The notes under the pieces were generated by a model. The model was not told where the DNA came from and did not search any database. It saw only the letters and a list, made by a program, of their open reading frames with translations. Source: Timaviella obliquedivisa GSE-PSE-MK23-08B (GTDB lineage Bacteria > Cyanobacteriota > Cyanobacteriia > Elainellales > Elainellaceae). Taken from it: a stretch of 64,000 nt of DNA. The position numbers and the translations under genes are program-made. The stretch spans positions 248,001 through 312,000 of the forward strand of contig JAHHII010000005.1 of NCBI GenBank assembly GCA_019358855.1, in the 5' to 3' direction. The first letter of the stretch is position 1, and every line of letters begins with the position of its first letter. Shown here one piece after another: positions 1,605-11,442 of this stretch.

Positions 1605-2099
1605 ATGATGAAATCCCGTAGTCCTGATACTTTTCTCGTCAAAATAACGCTACTGCTGGTCAGTGCCCTGACCGTGATGGCAGGCGCAACGATCGCCCCG
1701 GCTCTCCCAGCCATGCGGCAGTATTTTTCCGAGGTTGCCAATGCTGATTATTGGGTGAGGCTCATATTAACTGCCCCAGCGCTTTTTATTGCGATCGGTG
1801 CGCCCATCGCTGGAACAATCATCGATCGCTTTGGGCGTAAAGGGTTACTGGCTACTTCGGTTTTTCTTTATGGCTTGGCGGGCAGTTCTGGCTTTTTGCT
1901 CAATGAGATTGGGTTAATGCTGCTAGGGCGAGTGCTGCTGGGCTTAAGTGTGGCAGGAATCATGACCACAGCAACTACTCTCATTGCAGATTACTACAGA
2001 GATGCTGCCCGTGCCCAATTTTTGGGACTGCAAGCTGCTTTTATGGGATTTGGTGGCGTTATCTTCCTGACTTTGGGGGCTCTTCTGAGGTCTTGGTGA
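1605..2099 (+). pseudogene. MFS transporter, 3'-truncated by an IS
   Basis: The N-terminal part of a major facilitator superfamily drug-efflux-type transporter is readable. A first membrane helix (LLLVSALTVMAGATIAPALP) is followed by the loop-2/3 signature GTIIDRFGRKGLL. About 157 native residues are present out of the roughly 400 usual for the family. The frame runs into the left inverted repeat of the ISL3 element at 2077 and stops inside it at 2097-2099. The rest of the gene is not found on the far side of the element, so the 3' part has been lost rather than only split. Confidence 0.8.
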
Positions 2100-3325
2100 A
2101 GATGGTATAGTGAGGTACATTTTACTATGCCATCGGTTCATGGACTTTCATCTCGACACCCTTCTCAATCTACCTGATACGACGGTCGAAAGCTGTCTGC
2201 ACCAAGAGCAGCAAGTCGTCATGAAATTACGCTTTTTGTTGGAAAAAGGCGACTGTCCCGATTGCCAACAGTCGAGTGAGGATCTACACCAAAATCGCCC
2301 TATTTTAGTGAGGGACTTACCTGTTTTTGGTCAACCCGTACAACTCCAAGTGCCTCGTCGTCAGTTTTACTGTCGCCCCTGTCAACGCTACTTTACAGAA
2401 CATCTGACATTTATCGATTGGGAACGGCGTTACACGCAACGCTATGAAGACTATATTTACCAACGCGTGCAAGCGGCAAGTATGGAGCAAGTGAGTCGGG
2501 AAGAAGACCTCAGTTGGGATCAAGTTCAGGGAATTTTCAAGCACAAGTTTACCCAGCAAAAAAAACAGACTGGAGAACGGTAAGGCCTGTGGGAATTGAT
2601 GAAGTCAGTCAACGGAAAGGGCATAAAGATTTTGTCACGGTCGTCTGCGATATTGACCGAAGCAATCTCCTGGAAGTGATTGATAGCCATAAACAGACAG
2701 ATATCATTGAAGTGCTGCTCCAGCAACCCCTTGAGCTACGTCAACAAGTAGAGGAAGTCAGTGTCGATATGTGGGGAGGGTTTCCCAAAGTTGTTGCAGC
2801 AGTATTCCCCAATGCTCAGATTGTCTTCGACCGATTTCATGTGATGAAGCCAGTCAACGAAGAGTTGAATAAAGTGCGAAAACAAGTTGACATGACGCTT
2901 AAAGGCAGTAAGTTTATTTTACTCAAGAACGGGGTCGATTTAAGCCCAGAAGAGCAGATTAAATTAGCCGTAATCTTGAGTCAATCGGGACGCTTAAAAC
3001 TTGCCTACGAGTTAAAGGAAGAATTTAGAAGTATTTTTGAAACTTGCAATACGGTTGAGGCGGGCAAAGAACAACTCTTGGAATGGCTCAAGAAAGCTCG
3101 CTCTGTCTACTGTGAGGTCTTGACGACCATTCGCAGTCATCTCGATGGCATCTGCAATTACTTTTTGAGTCGGACGACCAGTGGCGTAGTCGAGGGGATG
3201 AACAACCGGATTAAATTGATTAAGCGTCAAGCTTATGGGTTTGCCAACTTCGATAATTTTCGAGCGCGGCTACTCGCTTGCTTCTCTGATTAGGCTCACT
3301 TATCACCATCAACCCAGAAGAGCCC
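2077..3325 (+). mobile_element. ISL3-family insertion sequence
   Basis: The element is about 1.25 kb with imperfect terminal inverted repeats. The left (2077-2099) and right (3303-3325) ends agree at 19 of 23 positions, starting with GGGCTCTTCTG. It carries one ISL3-type transposase reading. The flanking 8-mers (GACTTTGG and GGGATTTT) do not match, although ISL3 elements normally make 8-bp target duplications. One flank has therefore probably been deleted or recombined, which fits the missing 3' part of the MFS gene. Confidence 0.88.
2140..3293 (+). CDS. ISL3-family transposase (two frames, -1 shift)
   Basis: This is a DDE transposase encoded in two frames. The first part (2140-2583) has a zinc-ribbon-like N terminus (CPDCQQS, then CRPCQRYF) and a helix-turn-helix region. 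The second part carries GIDEVSQRKGH (first Asp), VSVDMWGG (second Asp) and VVEGMNNRIKLIKRQAYG (Glu). Frames change by -1 at an A8 run (2558-2565), where the heptamer A AAA AAA lies in the zero frame. The joined product would be about 383 residues, near the usual family length. This is either programmed slippage or an inactivating indel. I chose the ATG at 2140 over an upstream GTG. Confidence 0.85.
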
Positions 3326-3514
3326 GGGATTTTAGACAGAAACTTTCAGTCTATTAATAGTTCTGCCGCCTGAGTTACGAATAGGGTAGTGGTGTGAGAA
3401 TATTGGTTAGTATCTCAAATGTTAAGCAATCCTAAAGATGCTAGTAACGAAAAGCAGTAAATTTGCTTAGTATTTGGCATCAAGCTGGACTTCTTTAAGT
3501 GGGTGGTTAAGGAC

Positions 3515-4012
3515 ATGAGTTTTGAGGCAGAAAGGTTGATCATTCGTCCAATTCGAGGGTCTATTGAGCCGGAGCAATGCGCTCGAATGATGGTCGAGGA
3601 AGAACCTTGGGTTCGATTCGGAACTAGTTATAAAGATAGTTTGCATAAGATGCAAGACACAAGCAAAGAAATCTACGTTGCTGAATCTGACGCACAAGTT
3701 GTTGGATTTGTGATTGTCAATATGCAGGGGACGTTCATTGGATACATTCAGACCGTTTGTGTAGCAGCAGAGCAGCGTGGAAGAGGAATCGGAACAAAGC
3801 TGATTGAGTGGGCGGAAGGCAGGATATTTAGAGATAGTCCGAATGTATTTATCTGTGTTTCATCGTTTAATCAAAATGCCCGTCGTCTCTATGAGCGATT
3901 AGGATATTCAGTTATTGGAGAACTAAAGGATTACATTGTGAAGGGGCATTCAGAGCTACTTCTACGAAAGACTCAGGGAGCATGGCTTGATTTTCAAAAG
4001 CATAAATGTTGA
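3515..4012 (+). CDS. GNAT-family N-acetyltransferase (cassette gene)
   Basis: The protein has 165 residues with one GNAT fold. The acetyl-CoA binding motif is Q/RxxGxG-like (EQRGRGIGTKLIEWAE, about residues 88-103), and the C-terminal NQNARRLYERLGY segment is typical of the family. The ATG at 3515 follows AAGGA and is preferred over a GTG 12 bases upstream. The gene lies just downstream of the ISL3 element and ends 8 bp before an attC-like site. It therefore looks like the first visible cassette of an integron-like array. Acetyltransferases are common cassette cargo. The substrate is unknown. Confidence 0.85.
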   Translation: MSFEAERLIIRPIRGSIEPEQCARMMVEEEPWVRFGTSYKDSLHKMQDTSKEIYVAESDAQVVGFVIVNMQGTFIGYIQTVCVAAEQRGRGIGTKLIEWAEGRIFRDSPNVFICVSSFNQNARRLYERLGYSVIGELKDYIVKGHSELLLRKTQGAWLDFQKHKC

Positions 4013-4020
4013 TTGTGGCG

Positions 4021-4109
4021 GCAGAACAATCCGCTTGCACACCGACCGTATCAAGATGGTTAGTCTAGTCCAAAAGATCACTAGCGGCGTGTGAAGCGGG
4101 TCGTTAGGC
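4021..4109 (+). other. attC-like integron recombination site 1
   Basis: The left arm GAACAATCCGCTTGCACACCG and the reverse complement of the right end (AACGACCCGCTTCACACGCCG) pair along most of their length. An extra G is bulged in the left arm (CTTGCAC against CTTCAC). The right end is GTTAGGC, a perfect fit to the R' consensus GTTRRRY. Size (89 bp), position right after a gene stop and orientation all fit an attC (59-base element). The arms were aligned by eye. Confidence 0.75.
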
Positions 4110-4269
4110 TACTTATCTTTCGGGTGATGACAATAGTTCGAAATCGATTTGTCATTTCCCCAGCATTCACAGATTCAAGGTTATGAGTGAGGGCGGTGAT
4201 TGAGAGATTGTTGATATGTGCAAAATGTCAAGCTAGAATCATTCAGGAAGTTCGCGGTCAAATTTCTTG

Positions 4270-5004
4270 ATGAAGACGGCAATTCTCGCTCCACTTCAAG
4301 AAGAACTAGCTTTTCTGGTCGCTGAATTAGAGAAGTTTGGACTACAAAAAAGAGAGATTCGATTAGGTAGGCTAGACGTTTTTGAATTTAGCGAGATTGA
4401 CTTATTAGTTACCTATGGCGGACATGGCAAAACGCAGTTTAGTATCCAGTCCCAGTACTTGCTTTGCCAGGTTCCACAAATACAACTGTTAGTGTGCGCC
4501 GGAGCCGCTGGAGCATTGACTAGTTCATTGAACGTTGGCGATGTTGTGGTCGCAACTGAAACGGTTGAACACGACTACAACCTGAAATTTGTCAGCCGCC
4601 CTCTGCCTCGTTTCGCTGGAGATCCTCAAGTCATTGAGGTTCTCCAAAATTTACCTCAGTCGAATTTAGCGTTTTCAGTTCATTTTGGTGCTGTTGCAAG
4701 CGGTGACGAGGATATTGTTGATGCTGCAAGAGGGCAAGAGGTAATGAACTTAACCAATTGTATTGCTGTTGCGTGGGAAGGGGCAGGAGGGGCGAGAGCG
4801 TGTAAATTCAATGAGAAGTATTATATTGAGTTGCGTGGTGTAACTGATACGGCAAATCATCAAGCAGCGGCAGATTTTGAAGCGAATTTGGTGATAGCCA
4901 TGCACAATCTAGCTGAGGTCATTGTTCGATGGAGAGCAACGTTGCAACCAAGCGGCGCAGCACAACAATGCGGTGCAGCCGACCGTAAAGAGTTTCTTCA
5001 TTAA
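4270..5004 (+). CDS. Nucleoside phosphorylase/MTA-SAH nucleosidase-like protein
   Basis: The 244-residue protein belongs to the PNP_UDP_1 superfamily. The N terminus MKTAILAPLQEELAFL, the central VCAGAAGALTSSLNVGDVVV loop and the C-terminal AWEGAGGARACKF...ELRGVTDTAN segment match the purine-ribose site layout of methylthioadenosine/S-adenosylhomocysteine nucleosidases. It is more divergent than housekeeping MTAN, so the substrate is open. The ATG at 4270 is preferred to the adjacent TTG at 4267. The last 15 codons lie inside attC-like site 2. The gene therefore sits alone in a cassette running from about 4104 to 5039. Confidence 0.75.
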   Translation: MKTAILAPLQEELAFLVAELEKFGLQKREIRLGRLDVFEFSEIDLLVTYGGHGKTQFSIQSQYLLCQVPQIQLLVCAGAAGALTSSLNVGDVVVATETVEHDYNLKFVSRPLPRFAGDPQVIEVLQNLPQSNLAFSVHFGAVASGDEDIVDAARGQEVMNLTNCIAVAWEGAGGARACKFNEKYYIELRGVTDTANHQAAADFEANLVIAMHNLAEVIVRWRATLQPSGAAQQCGAADRKEFLH

Positions 5005-5045
5005 GTTCGAGAGATCCTCGCGGCGGCTGACCTGTGCCGTTAGAC
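4960..5045 (+). other. attC-like integron recombination site 2
   Basis: The left arm AACAATGCGGTGCAGCCGACCG is matched by the reverse complement of the right arm, AACGGCACAGGTCAGCCGCCG. It again has a bulged G (GGTGCAGCCG against GGTCAGCCG). The right end GTTAGAC fits GTTRRRY exactly. The site is 86 bp long and overlaps the 3' end of the nucleosidase-like gene, a common arrangement in cassettes. Confidence 0.75.
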
Positions 5046-5093
5046 AGTGCATACACCTACTAAAAAGCAGAATTTAAGTCAGGAGAAAATTAA

Positions 5094-5450
5094 GTGATTC
5101 GACTTGAAGATCAAGTAGCAATTATTACTGGAAGCAGGCGAGGTTTGAAACAGCCTATGCCCGCCTGCTGATGGGAAGAGGAGCACGAGTGGTTATACAT
5201 GGCGCAGGCGTTAACAAAGATGGAACCGGGTTCGATCCGAACGTGGCGGCTGATGCCGCAAGCAGGATTCGAGAAGTAGGCGGGATTGCGTTTCCGATCA
5301 ACGTCATCCTCGATAGTAGAGATAACTGCCGAAGAAAGAGTGGAAACTACACTGGAGAAGTTTGGTCGCCTCGACATTTTGATCTACAATGCGGGATGGG
5401 TTGCCATCAGTCAGTGCAAGATGCACCGGAACGGAGCGTAGGTTATTATT
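5094..5450 (+). pseudogene. SDR oxidoreductase remnant within cassette
   Basis: AGGAG at 5081-5085 precedes a GTG that opens VIRLEDQVAIITGSRRGL, the Rossmann start of an SDR. Indels then shift the frame. MGRGARVVIHGAGVNKDGTG appears in a second frame, and KFGRLDILIYNAGWVAIS appears in another. The catalytic half is absent. The product resembles the SDR domain of 3-hydroxyacyl-CoA dehydrogenase-type multifunctional enzymes, but that is only a guess. It occupies the first part of the third cassette. Confidence 0.7.
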
Positions 5451-5518
5451 GAGTTGCAAAGATTATTCTCGTCCAATGAGTTCAACCGTTAGTCTGCAAT
5501 TCCTGTTAAATGCCTATG

Positions 5519-5556
5519 ATATTATGTAAGCACTTACGCAACTGCTTACATAATAT
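5519..5556. promoter_or_regulatory. 14-bp perfect inverted repeat at marR start (operator)
   Basis: ATATTATGTAAGCA (5519-5532) and TGCTTACATAATAT (5543-5556) are exact reverse complements separated by 10 bp. The loop itself continues the pattern (CTTAC). The right arm overlaps the ATG at 5555 of the MarR-GNAT gene. MarR proteins commonly repress their own genes through such palindromes, so this is a likely autoregulatory operator. The symmetry is seen directly; the function is inferred. Confidence 0.6.
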
Positions 5557-6502
5557 GGTTTTTTACCCCCAAGTTGGTAAAGTAGCACTAGGTAGCCGTC
5601 TGCGACGATTAAGCGATCGCTTGACCGAAGATGCCGCAAAAATTTACACCCTTTACAGGGTTACGCTAGATCCAAAGTGGTTTCCTGTTTTCTATGTTTT
5701 GTCGCAGAAGGAGAGCGCAGCAGTTACTGAGATTGCTCAAATTATTGGACACTCTCATGCTTCTGTCAGCCAGATTGTTAGAGAGATGAGCAATCGAGGA
5801 TTCGCAACAACTGAAAAGCATAGTCAGGATGCGAGAGTGAGCGTTGTAAAACTCTCTGATTCTGGGAAGCAATTGATCCCTTACCTTGAACAGCAGTGTG
5901 TTGATGTAAACCAAGCTGTTGAGGAACTGTTATCAGAATCACAATATGATCTCTAGAACGCGATCGCAGAGGTTGAATTTCTGCTTGCTGACAAAAGCTT
6001 TTTTGCTCGTGTCCAAGCGGTGCAAAAAATGCGTGAACAGAAATCTGTTGAAATTATTGATTACTTACCAGAGTTTCACAATGATTTCAAGCGCCTGAAC
6101 TACGAGTGGATTGAGGAATACTTTCAGCTAGAAGAAGCTGATCACCAATCCCTCAGTCATCCCAATGAAAAAATTTTGAAGCCAGGTGGACACATCTTTA
6201 TGGCACGGCATAAAGGCGAAATTGTTGGGGGTTGTGCCCTAATCAAGATAGATGACCATACCTATGAATTGGCTAAAATGGCAGTCACAGAAAAAGCTAA
6301 AGGCAAAGGGATCGGATGGCTCTTAGGGCAAGCAGCCATCAACAAAGCGCGTGAGTTAAGAGCAGAAACAGTCTTTTTAGAGAGCAATACGATCTTAGAG
6401 CCTGCAATTAATCTCTACCAAAAGCTAGGGTTTCGGAAAGTAGTTGGGCAGCCTTCACCGTACCAACGCTGTAATATTCAGATGGAGCTAAAGCTTGTTT
6501 AG
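5555..6502 (+). pseudogene. MarR-GNAT fusion gene with in-frame TAG
   Basis: Residues 1-133 form a MarR winged helix (VFYVLSQKESAAVTEIAQ, then HSHASVSQIVREMSNRGF). After TAG at 5954-5956 the same frame continues with NAIAEVEFLLADKSFFARV. It then gives a GNAT domain with VTEKAKGKGIGWLLGQA and LYQKLGFRKVVG. Fused MarR-GNAT proteins of about 315 residues are a known architecture, and the residue at the stop is normally Trp, so TGG to TAG is the likely change. No other disruption is seen. A separate GTG at 6020 could restart the GNAT domain. The gene ends 21 bp before attC-like site 3. Confidence 0.8.
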
Positions 6503-6523
6503 GCATATCTCAAGGAGCAATTG

Positions 6524-6613
6524 AACCAACACAAGCTCGTTGCACACCGACCGACAGAGAGCGATCGGTGGGAATTCAAATATCCTGTCGGCGGGTGAAT
6601 GGGATCGTTAGTC
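6524..6613 (+). other. attC-like integron recombination site 3
   Basis: The left arm has AACACAAGCTCGTTGCACACCG followed by ACCGACAG. The reverse complement of the right arm has AACGATCCCATTCACCCGCCG followed by ACAG. The same extra G is present (TTGCAC against TTCAC). The right end is GTTAGTC, one base off GTTRRRY. Its 90-bp length matches the other two sites. The arms pair less well than in sites 1 and 2. Confidence 0.65.
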
Positions 6614-6799
6614 TGCTGTACACTACATTGTTTCGGCAGAAGAACGTTCATCGCCACGTCGAGCTTTGCGGCTCTGCTCTCTGAAGTTCAGCCCTTCACC
6701 CTGTCTCACCCATGACGATGAGCGTTTGGCTAGTATGACTTCTGCTGACTTCTCAATCAAAATTGGTGGCACTAAATTATACGGATCTTGGCTCGACCC

Positions 6800-11048: not shown

Positions 11049-11442
11049 GCGTACCTCCAACCGATCATCGGTGATCATCGGTCGAGGCTACGCAACCTGC
11101 GACAATCTTGAGCGCGGGCGAAAACCAGAGACAACAATGAGGGCGGCGTTTCAACTTATCTTGAAATCCGCCCTAGCTTTAGGTTCTTATGTCAAAGCTG
11201 CTGTAACCCCAGCCAACCGATGACTTCTGACTTCTTGATGTACGTCACTACTCGTCTTAGAGCCTAATGACAAACCGCAGCAGCGACCGACAAACTTTGA
11301 ACTCTGCACCAGCGACTTCCGATCGTCCGCTGCCGTGACATGTTAGCCCGCGCTTCACAAAGTCATGACCCTCGCATTTCCCAACCTTCTCAACGGAAGG
11401 GTATTGCAACTTGTAAACCGCACAGTCCTCGCTTAACCCTTC
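11049..11442. other. Non-coding stretch with hairpin and possible fourth attC
   Basis: No gene is visible. A hairpin at 11140-11174 pairs AGGGCGG with CCGCCCT and TTTCAA with TTGAAA around a 6-base loop; it is terminator-like but has no T run. The 10-mer GATCATCGGT is repeated in tandem near 11063. At 11262-11348, GCCTAAT...AACCGCAGCAGCG and GCTGCCGTGACATGTTAGCC are partly complementary and resemble an attC, but the fit is weaker than in sites 1-3 and the right end GTTAGCC breaks the consensus. Confidence 0.35.

Follow-up and report, generated by a model that had tools for sequence, protein, structure and literature searches.

The window, by which we mean the whole 64,000-nucleotide stretch of Timaviella obliquedivisa DNA analysed here, contains a run of four gene cassettes with their attC sites. 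The run starts at the remnant of an attI site, which abuts an insertion sequence, and is followed by a fragment of a group II intron. The features are listed below. Scores for attC are from the covariance model R1 (see below), whose E values, like those of the attI model R2, are only roughly calibrated.

1605–2099, + strand: MFS-transporter-like gene, 5′ fragment, from the open reading frame list; family read from the sequence; outside the integron
2077–3325, + strand: ISL3-family insertion sequence; its transposase spans two overlapping frames, with ISL3 transposase, Zn-ribbon and HTH matches
3326–3366, + strand: attI remnant; core inverted repeat and crossover core G|TT (GTTCTGC, 3360–3366)
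3503–4012, + strand: cassette 1, GNAT N-acetyltransferase (PF00583, E 4e-17)
4021–4109, + strand: attC A, ending in GTTAGGC (R1 46.3 bits, E 2.8e-8 for 64 kb)
4267–5004, + strand: cassette 2, MTA/SAH-nucleosidase-like gene of the PNP_UDP family (PF01048, E 8e-21)
4960–5045, + strand: attC B, ending in GTTAGAC (R1 58.9 bits, E 3.6e-11 for 64 kb)
5096–5453, + strand: cassette 3, frameshifted SDR-oxidoreductase-like pseudogene, read in shifting frames; putative family
5414–5494, + strand: degraded attC between cassettes 3 and 4 (R1 20.4 bits, E 0.021)
5510–6502, + strand: cassette 4, MarR-GNAT fusion with an in-frame TAG at 5954–5956
6524–6613, + strand: attC C, ending in GTTAGTC; R″ degenerate (R1 41.7 bits, E 3e-7 for 64 kb)
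6646–6778, − strand: group II intron remnant (RF01998 at 6691–6778, 34.9 bits; gathering score 35)
11262–11348, − strand: lone attC; R′ core mutated (CATTAGG) (R1 51.3 bits, E 1.9e-9)

R1 was built from 33 attC sites lying beside intact cyanobacterial integrases, drawn from 20-kb stretches adjoining intI (TIGR02249) genes; no sequence from the window was included. In a profile search of 390 genomes from the same class, 125 had a TIGR02249 match exceeding the cut-off. When aligned, the 33 sites show the expected stem; 13 of its 18 pairs are preserved by paired changes in the two arms, and the R″/R′ cores are invariant. Sites A, B and C had been proposed in an earlier note on this DNA. All three lie exactly at the positions given there, in a single orientation and each 3′ of an open reading frame, and R1 recovered them with strong scores. 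The note had also remarked on a bulged G in the left arm, and this is genuine. R1 matched the sites end to end, including the L″/L′ stem with its extrahelical base; the bulged G is present in all three. In the alignment of the 33 sites it occupies column 17, an invariant G in the bulge of the consensus stem, and so is a fixed trait of cyanobacterial attC. The R′ boxes of A and B fit GTTRRRY with its crossover core and that of C fits at six of seven positions. Compared with the R″ consensus RYYYAAC, sites A (GCAGAAC) and B (GCACAAC) keep the AAC and depart from the consensus upstream of it; the degenerate R″ of site C reads AACCAAC with a 2-base shift. As a control, R1 was run at an E value of 0.001 on 12 integrase-poor cyanobacterial genomes: ten were without any match, and the remaining two hold several attC each, scoring up to 73–85 bits. 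Sites A to C are attC sites, beyond chance.

The cluster described in the earlier note is thus a real attC array, with four cassettes rather than three, the degraded site at 5414–5494 having been overlooked. This site resembles intact sites in two other loci (L022:4729–4816 and L027:4119–4210), and it splits the SDR pseudogene from the MarR-GNAT gene. R″ of B and R″ of C agree poorly with the preceding R′ (5/7), so the order of the array may have changed since insertion. A CALIN is reportedly (Cury et al., IntegronFinder) a cluster of attC sites lacking an integron-integrase. Four attC, one of them degraded, lie within 2.6 kb (R1) and there is no intI nearby; the assignment of the cluster as a CALIN is correct by the definition used in IntegronFinder 2, which asks for two or more attC and no intI (PMC9024848). 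We note that the lone attC at 11262–11348, likewise not listed in the earlier note, is opposed to the cluster and sits between a gene for a DUF389-like membrane protein and a sensor-kinase operon.

The cassette genes follow the order read earlier, with sites A, B and C behind the acetyltransferase, the nucleosidase-like and the MarR-GNAT genes; the last of these is broken by its in-frame TAG. The Aphanocapsa homologue is open at this point. The stop codon, together with the frameshifts in the SDR gene, indicates that the locus is decaying. The cassette 2 gene also matches PRK05584 (E 4e-31, below that model's cut-off) and its reading frame extends into attC B. A defence-library scan of the cassette genes gave weak matches only, none meaningful. 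Just upstream of the MarR-GNAT gene, at 5525–5560, there is a near-perfect inverted repeat (TATGTAAGCACTTACGCAACTGCTTACATA), partly kept in the Aphanocapsa homologue, which is perhaps an operator.

Homologues of the nucleosidase gene were found in 5 of 380 genomes of the class; no other member of the family had one. Cassette 2 matches DNA of genome G048, probably Myxacorys almedinensis A, at 82% identity over 933 bp. The homology sets in 15 bp past the site A core, stops precisely where site B ends and has attC on both sides. Cassette 2 is therefore an exact unit of gene plus attC shared with other families, as for a unit moving between genomes. In G198, probably a Myxosarcina MAG, an attC again lies behind the nucleosidase gene and is truncated where the contig stops. 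G161, probably an Aphanocapsa MAG, has the nucleosidase and MarR-GNAT genes adjacent (83% and 78% DNA identity; for MarR-GNAT, 77.8% over 982 bp to locus L097), the intervening attC being mostly lost. A GNAT homologue in genome G121 has an attC 39 bp downstream. The earlier suggestion of cassette exchange is borne out to the extent that counterpart genes with attC do occur at cassette positions elsewhere. These comparisons support exchange across cyanobacterial families, and the locus documents cassette genes common to several of them.

In a functioning integron, IntI recombines attI with the attC of a circular cassette, using the folded bottom strand of the attC and the G|TT point of attI. 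Once a cassette has entered at attI, the attI junction and R″ are expected to be exactly complementary. The junction upstream of cassette 1, GTTCTGC, and R″ of site A are complementary at every position. A BLAST search against the fetched loci matched window 3326–3362 with the attI of L034 and L017, which are about 200–220 bp upstream of intI. A profile of nine integrase-adjacent attI (nhmmer) matched 3326–3364 with an E value of 1.5e-6 in 1.07 Mb. This score falls among those of true attI, which lie about 180–290 bp upstream of intI, and the same profile also recovers the held-out attI in L018. R2, a longer sequence-only model comprising repeat plus core, scored the window attI at 28.3 bits (E 4e-7). 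With both the profile and R2, the core part alone is present at the window locus and the upstream repeat is missing, so that what remains of attI beside the first cassette is its core only. An exact-pattern search of the genome for attI gave no match because the spacer length differs. Several weaker R2 matches occur in relatives with no attC nearby; an attI-like inverted repeat can occur away from integrons by low-level sequence similarity.

The earlier note had reported no integrase. We searched for intI and found none in the window and none beside the attI remnant. There is no complete intI in the T. obliquedivisa genome, nor was the N-terminal integrase domain PF13495 found in it. The sole integrase trace is a C-terminal open frame of 93 residues on contig C3 (about 403345–403623; L001:1462–1740), which matches TIGR02249 positions 232–313 with an E value of 6.5e-36. 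A second tyrosine recombinase is located on contig C6; the C3 frame is the sole integron-integrase match. In a sister species of the same genus (G233) the position orthologous to that on C3 carries an intact intI, and synteny extends far on the downstream side. A direct pairing of the window attI with the C3 integrase was considered and rejected, as the attI of G233 (in L015) is clearly different. The window integron is therefore probably a second, separate one. The plasmid collection contained no DNA similar to the locus.

The ISL3 element has matching ends, read from the sequence as GGGCTCTTCTG...CAGAAGAGCCC. The left end cuts the MFS-like gene and the right end directly abuts the attI remnant at 3326. 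No target-site duplication was seen around the element. The simplest reading of the ISL3–attI junction would be that a deletion linked to the IS removed the integrase side.

It therefore appears very probable that a chromosomal integron once stood here and lost its integrase, and that the locus, an attI remnant and four cassettes with attC, is its surviving end. From established integron biology, the cassettes would have been inserted at attI by IntI in the past. The intI gene would have been lost later, most likely in a deletion associated with the ISL3 element, whose right end now lies at attI, and the cassettes would be immobile in the present strain unless an outside IntI arrives. Our placing of a lost intI next to the cluster relies on the attI alone, since the upstream attI half and traces of intI are absent at the locus. 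Like known CALINs, the locus has several attC in the same orientation behind accessory genes and no nearby intI, on a 430-kb contig and far from its ends. It differs in keeping an attI core, which points to the route of formation, namely loss of intI at a real platform. Compared with the sedentary chromosomal integrons of cyanobacteria, the attC sequence and structure, the attI core and the cassette layout match those beside intact intI, whereas the locus is without intI, the promoter side and the upstream attI repeat, and has a short array with two broken genes. Integrons in cyanobacteria are already known (PMC8352920, PMC9668308, PMC2426708), as are CALINs, and a cyanobacteria-specific attC covariance model was published by Ghaly et al. 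2021 (PMC8352920); the attC model used here was built independently of it. The window holds a genuine decayed integron, or CALIN with an attI remnant. It would be a clear case of CALIN formation, in which the remnant marks a real platform with a lost integrase and not a stray insertion.

With R1 at E 0.001 the T. obliquedivisa genome has 17 attC on several contigs, and attC are present in all 36 family genomes (3 to 122 each). R2 matched attI-like sites in 35 of the 36, mostly away from intI, the true attI count being uncertain because R2 also matches palindromic repeats with no attC nearby. Four of the nine core-containing attI in the T. obliquedivisa genome have a same-strand attC at most 4.5 kb downstream (chance 0.9% each; P 7e-7), as do four of six in each of the genomes G024 and G118 with the intI-linked site excluded (P 6e-9 and 2e-9); these P values rest on unselected match lists of the three genomes, while some of the relatives' loci were chosen for nearby attC. 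Among 33 fetched attI loci, a full intI was found in one, an N-terminal piece in one and a C-terminal scrap in one. It could be argued that the window locus belongs to a dispersed set of many attI platforms, none of which ever carried its own integrase, and that a single distant IntI fed them in trans, for example the C3 integrase, whose counterpart in the sister species remains intact. Such a history fits at least four loci of the genome that combine attI and attC and have no intI. It also fits the complete genome G024, where one cassette, which is non-coding, recurs at three attI (one linked to intI, two with no intact intI beside them) and behind two attC, the common boundary being G|TT. 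We nonetheless regard it as unlikely for the window. Scraps of integrase persist at some attI (N-terminal 75 residues in L170, C-terminal 18 residues in L150), and many attI retain a small open reading frame that neighbours intI, which points to local integrase loss. Most of the integrase-less attI platforms look like copies that lost intI.

For the family as a whole, we tentatively entertain a broader proposal: its integrons may form a dispersed system of many attI platforms, often beside an open reading frame of 66–98 residues and without their own integrase, served by one trans-acting IntI, with the window platform now dead since the last integrase was truncated. In the textbook rule, attI works beside its own integrase. 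Were integrase-less attI to accept cassettes in trans, this rule would need widening. The occurrence of several such platforms per genome, here and in relatives, is an unexpected pattern worth testing. Nothing on ‘orphan attI’ was found in the open-licence literature, which is no proof of novelty.

The proposed origins of CALINs include both loss of intI and off-target insertion (PMC8618304). In the latter an integrase acting in trans would have used a non-attI site, with no platform ever present; attG sites are a described route (PMC12901181), and the scatter of about 17 attC over several contigs would be consistent with it. This origin is quite improbable for the window, as cassette 1 begins precisely at the attI remnant's crossover core, not at an arbitrary GTT, and an attI remnant at the start of the cluster argues for a decayed integron. 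Chance or unrelated inverted repeats behind genes, such as terminators or small transposable elements, might be suggested by the modest single-strand DNA folding z-scores (−2.2, −3.1 and −1.0 for the three sites; not decisive alone) and by an Rfam scan of the window that returned nothing for attC at the gathering score, but are refuted, with next to no probability left, by held-out R1 E values down to 4e-11, the double compensatory changes, the almost empty control genomes and the cassette-bounded homology.

Some further observations concern attI elsewhere. Three more attI-like sites, each followed by same-strand attC and with no intI, are found on contigs C4 (19 kb), C8 (205 kb) and C16 (81 kb) of the T. 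obliquedivisa genome (loci L071, L069 and L068). On C16 the R″/R′ complementarity is exact through attI and three cassettes. G024 (L150–L157) and G118 (L161–L164) each have several attI platforms without an adjacent intI. The small conserved open reading frame of 66–98 residues is found beside intI in some genomes and beside integrase-less attI in many (for example L068:12017–12214, L151:9860–10117, L021:632–856 and L022:80–277). It has no Pfam match; it is possible that it encodes an integron-associated protein.

The group II intron remnant lies directly after attC C, on the strand opposite to the cassettes, and is 81% identical to introns beside attC in loci L083 and L084. Group II introns have been associated with integrons and CALINs (PMC7923331). 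The window remnant resembles these in its position right after an attC and opposite to cassette transcription; it differs in being a fragment of roughly 130 bp with no intron-encoded protein. We note that the introns near attC in L083, L084 and L085 are 76–81% identical to the window remnant and are always opposite to the cassettes.
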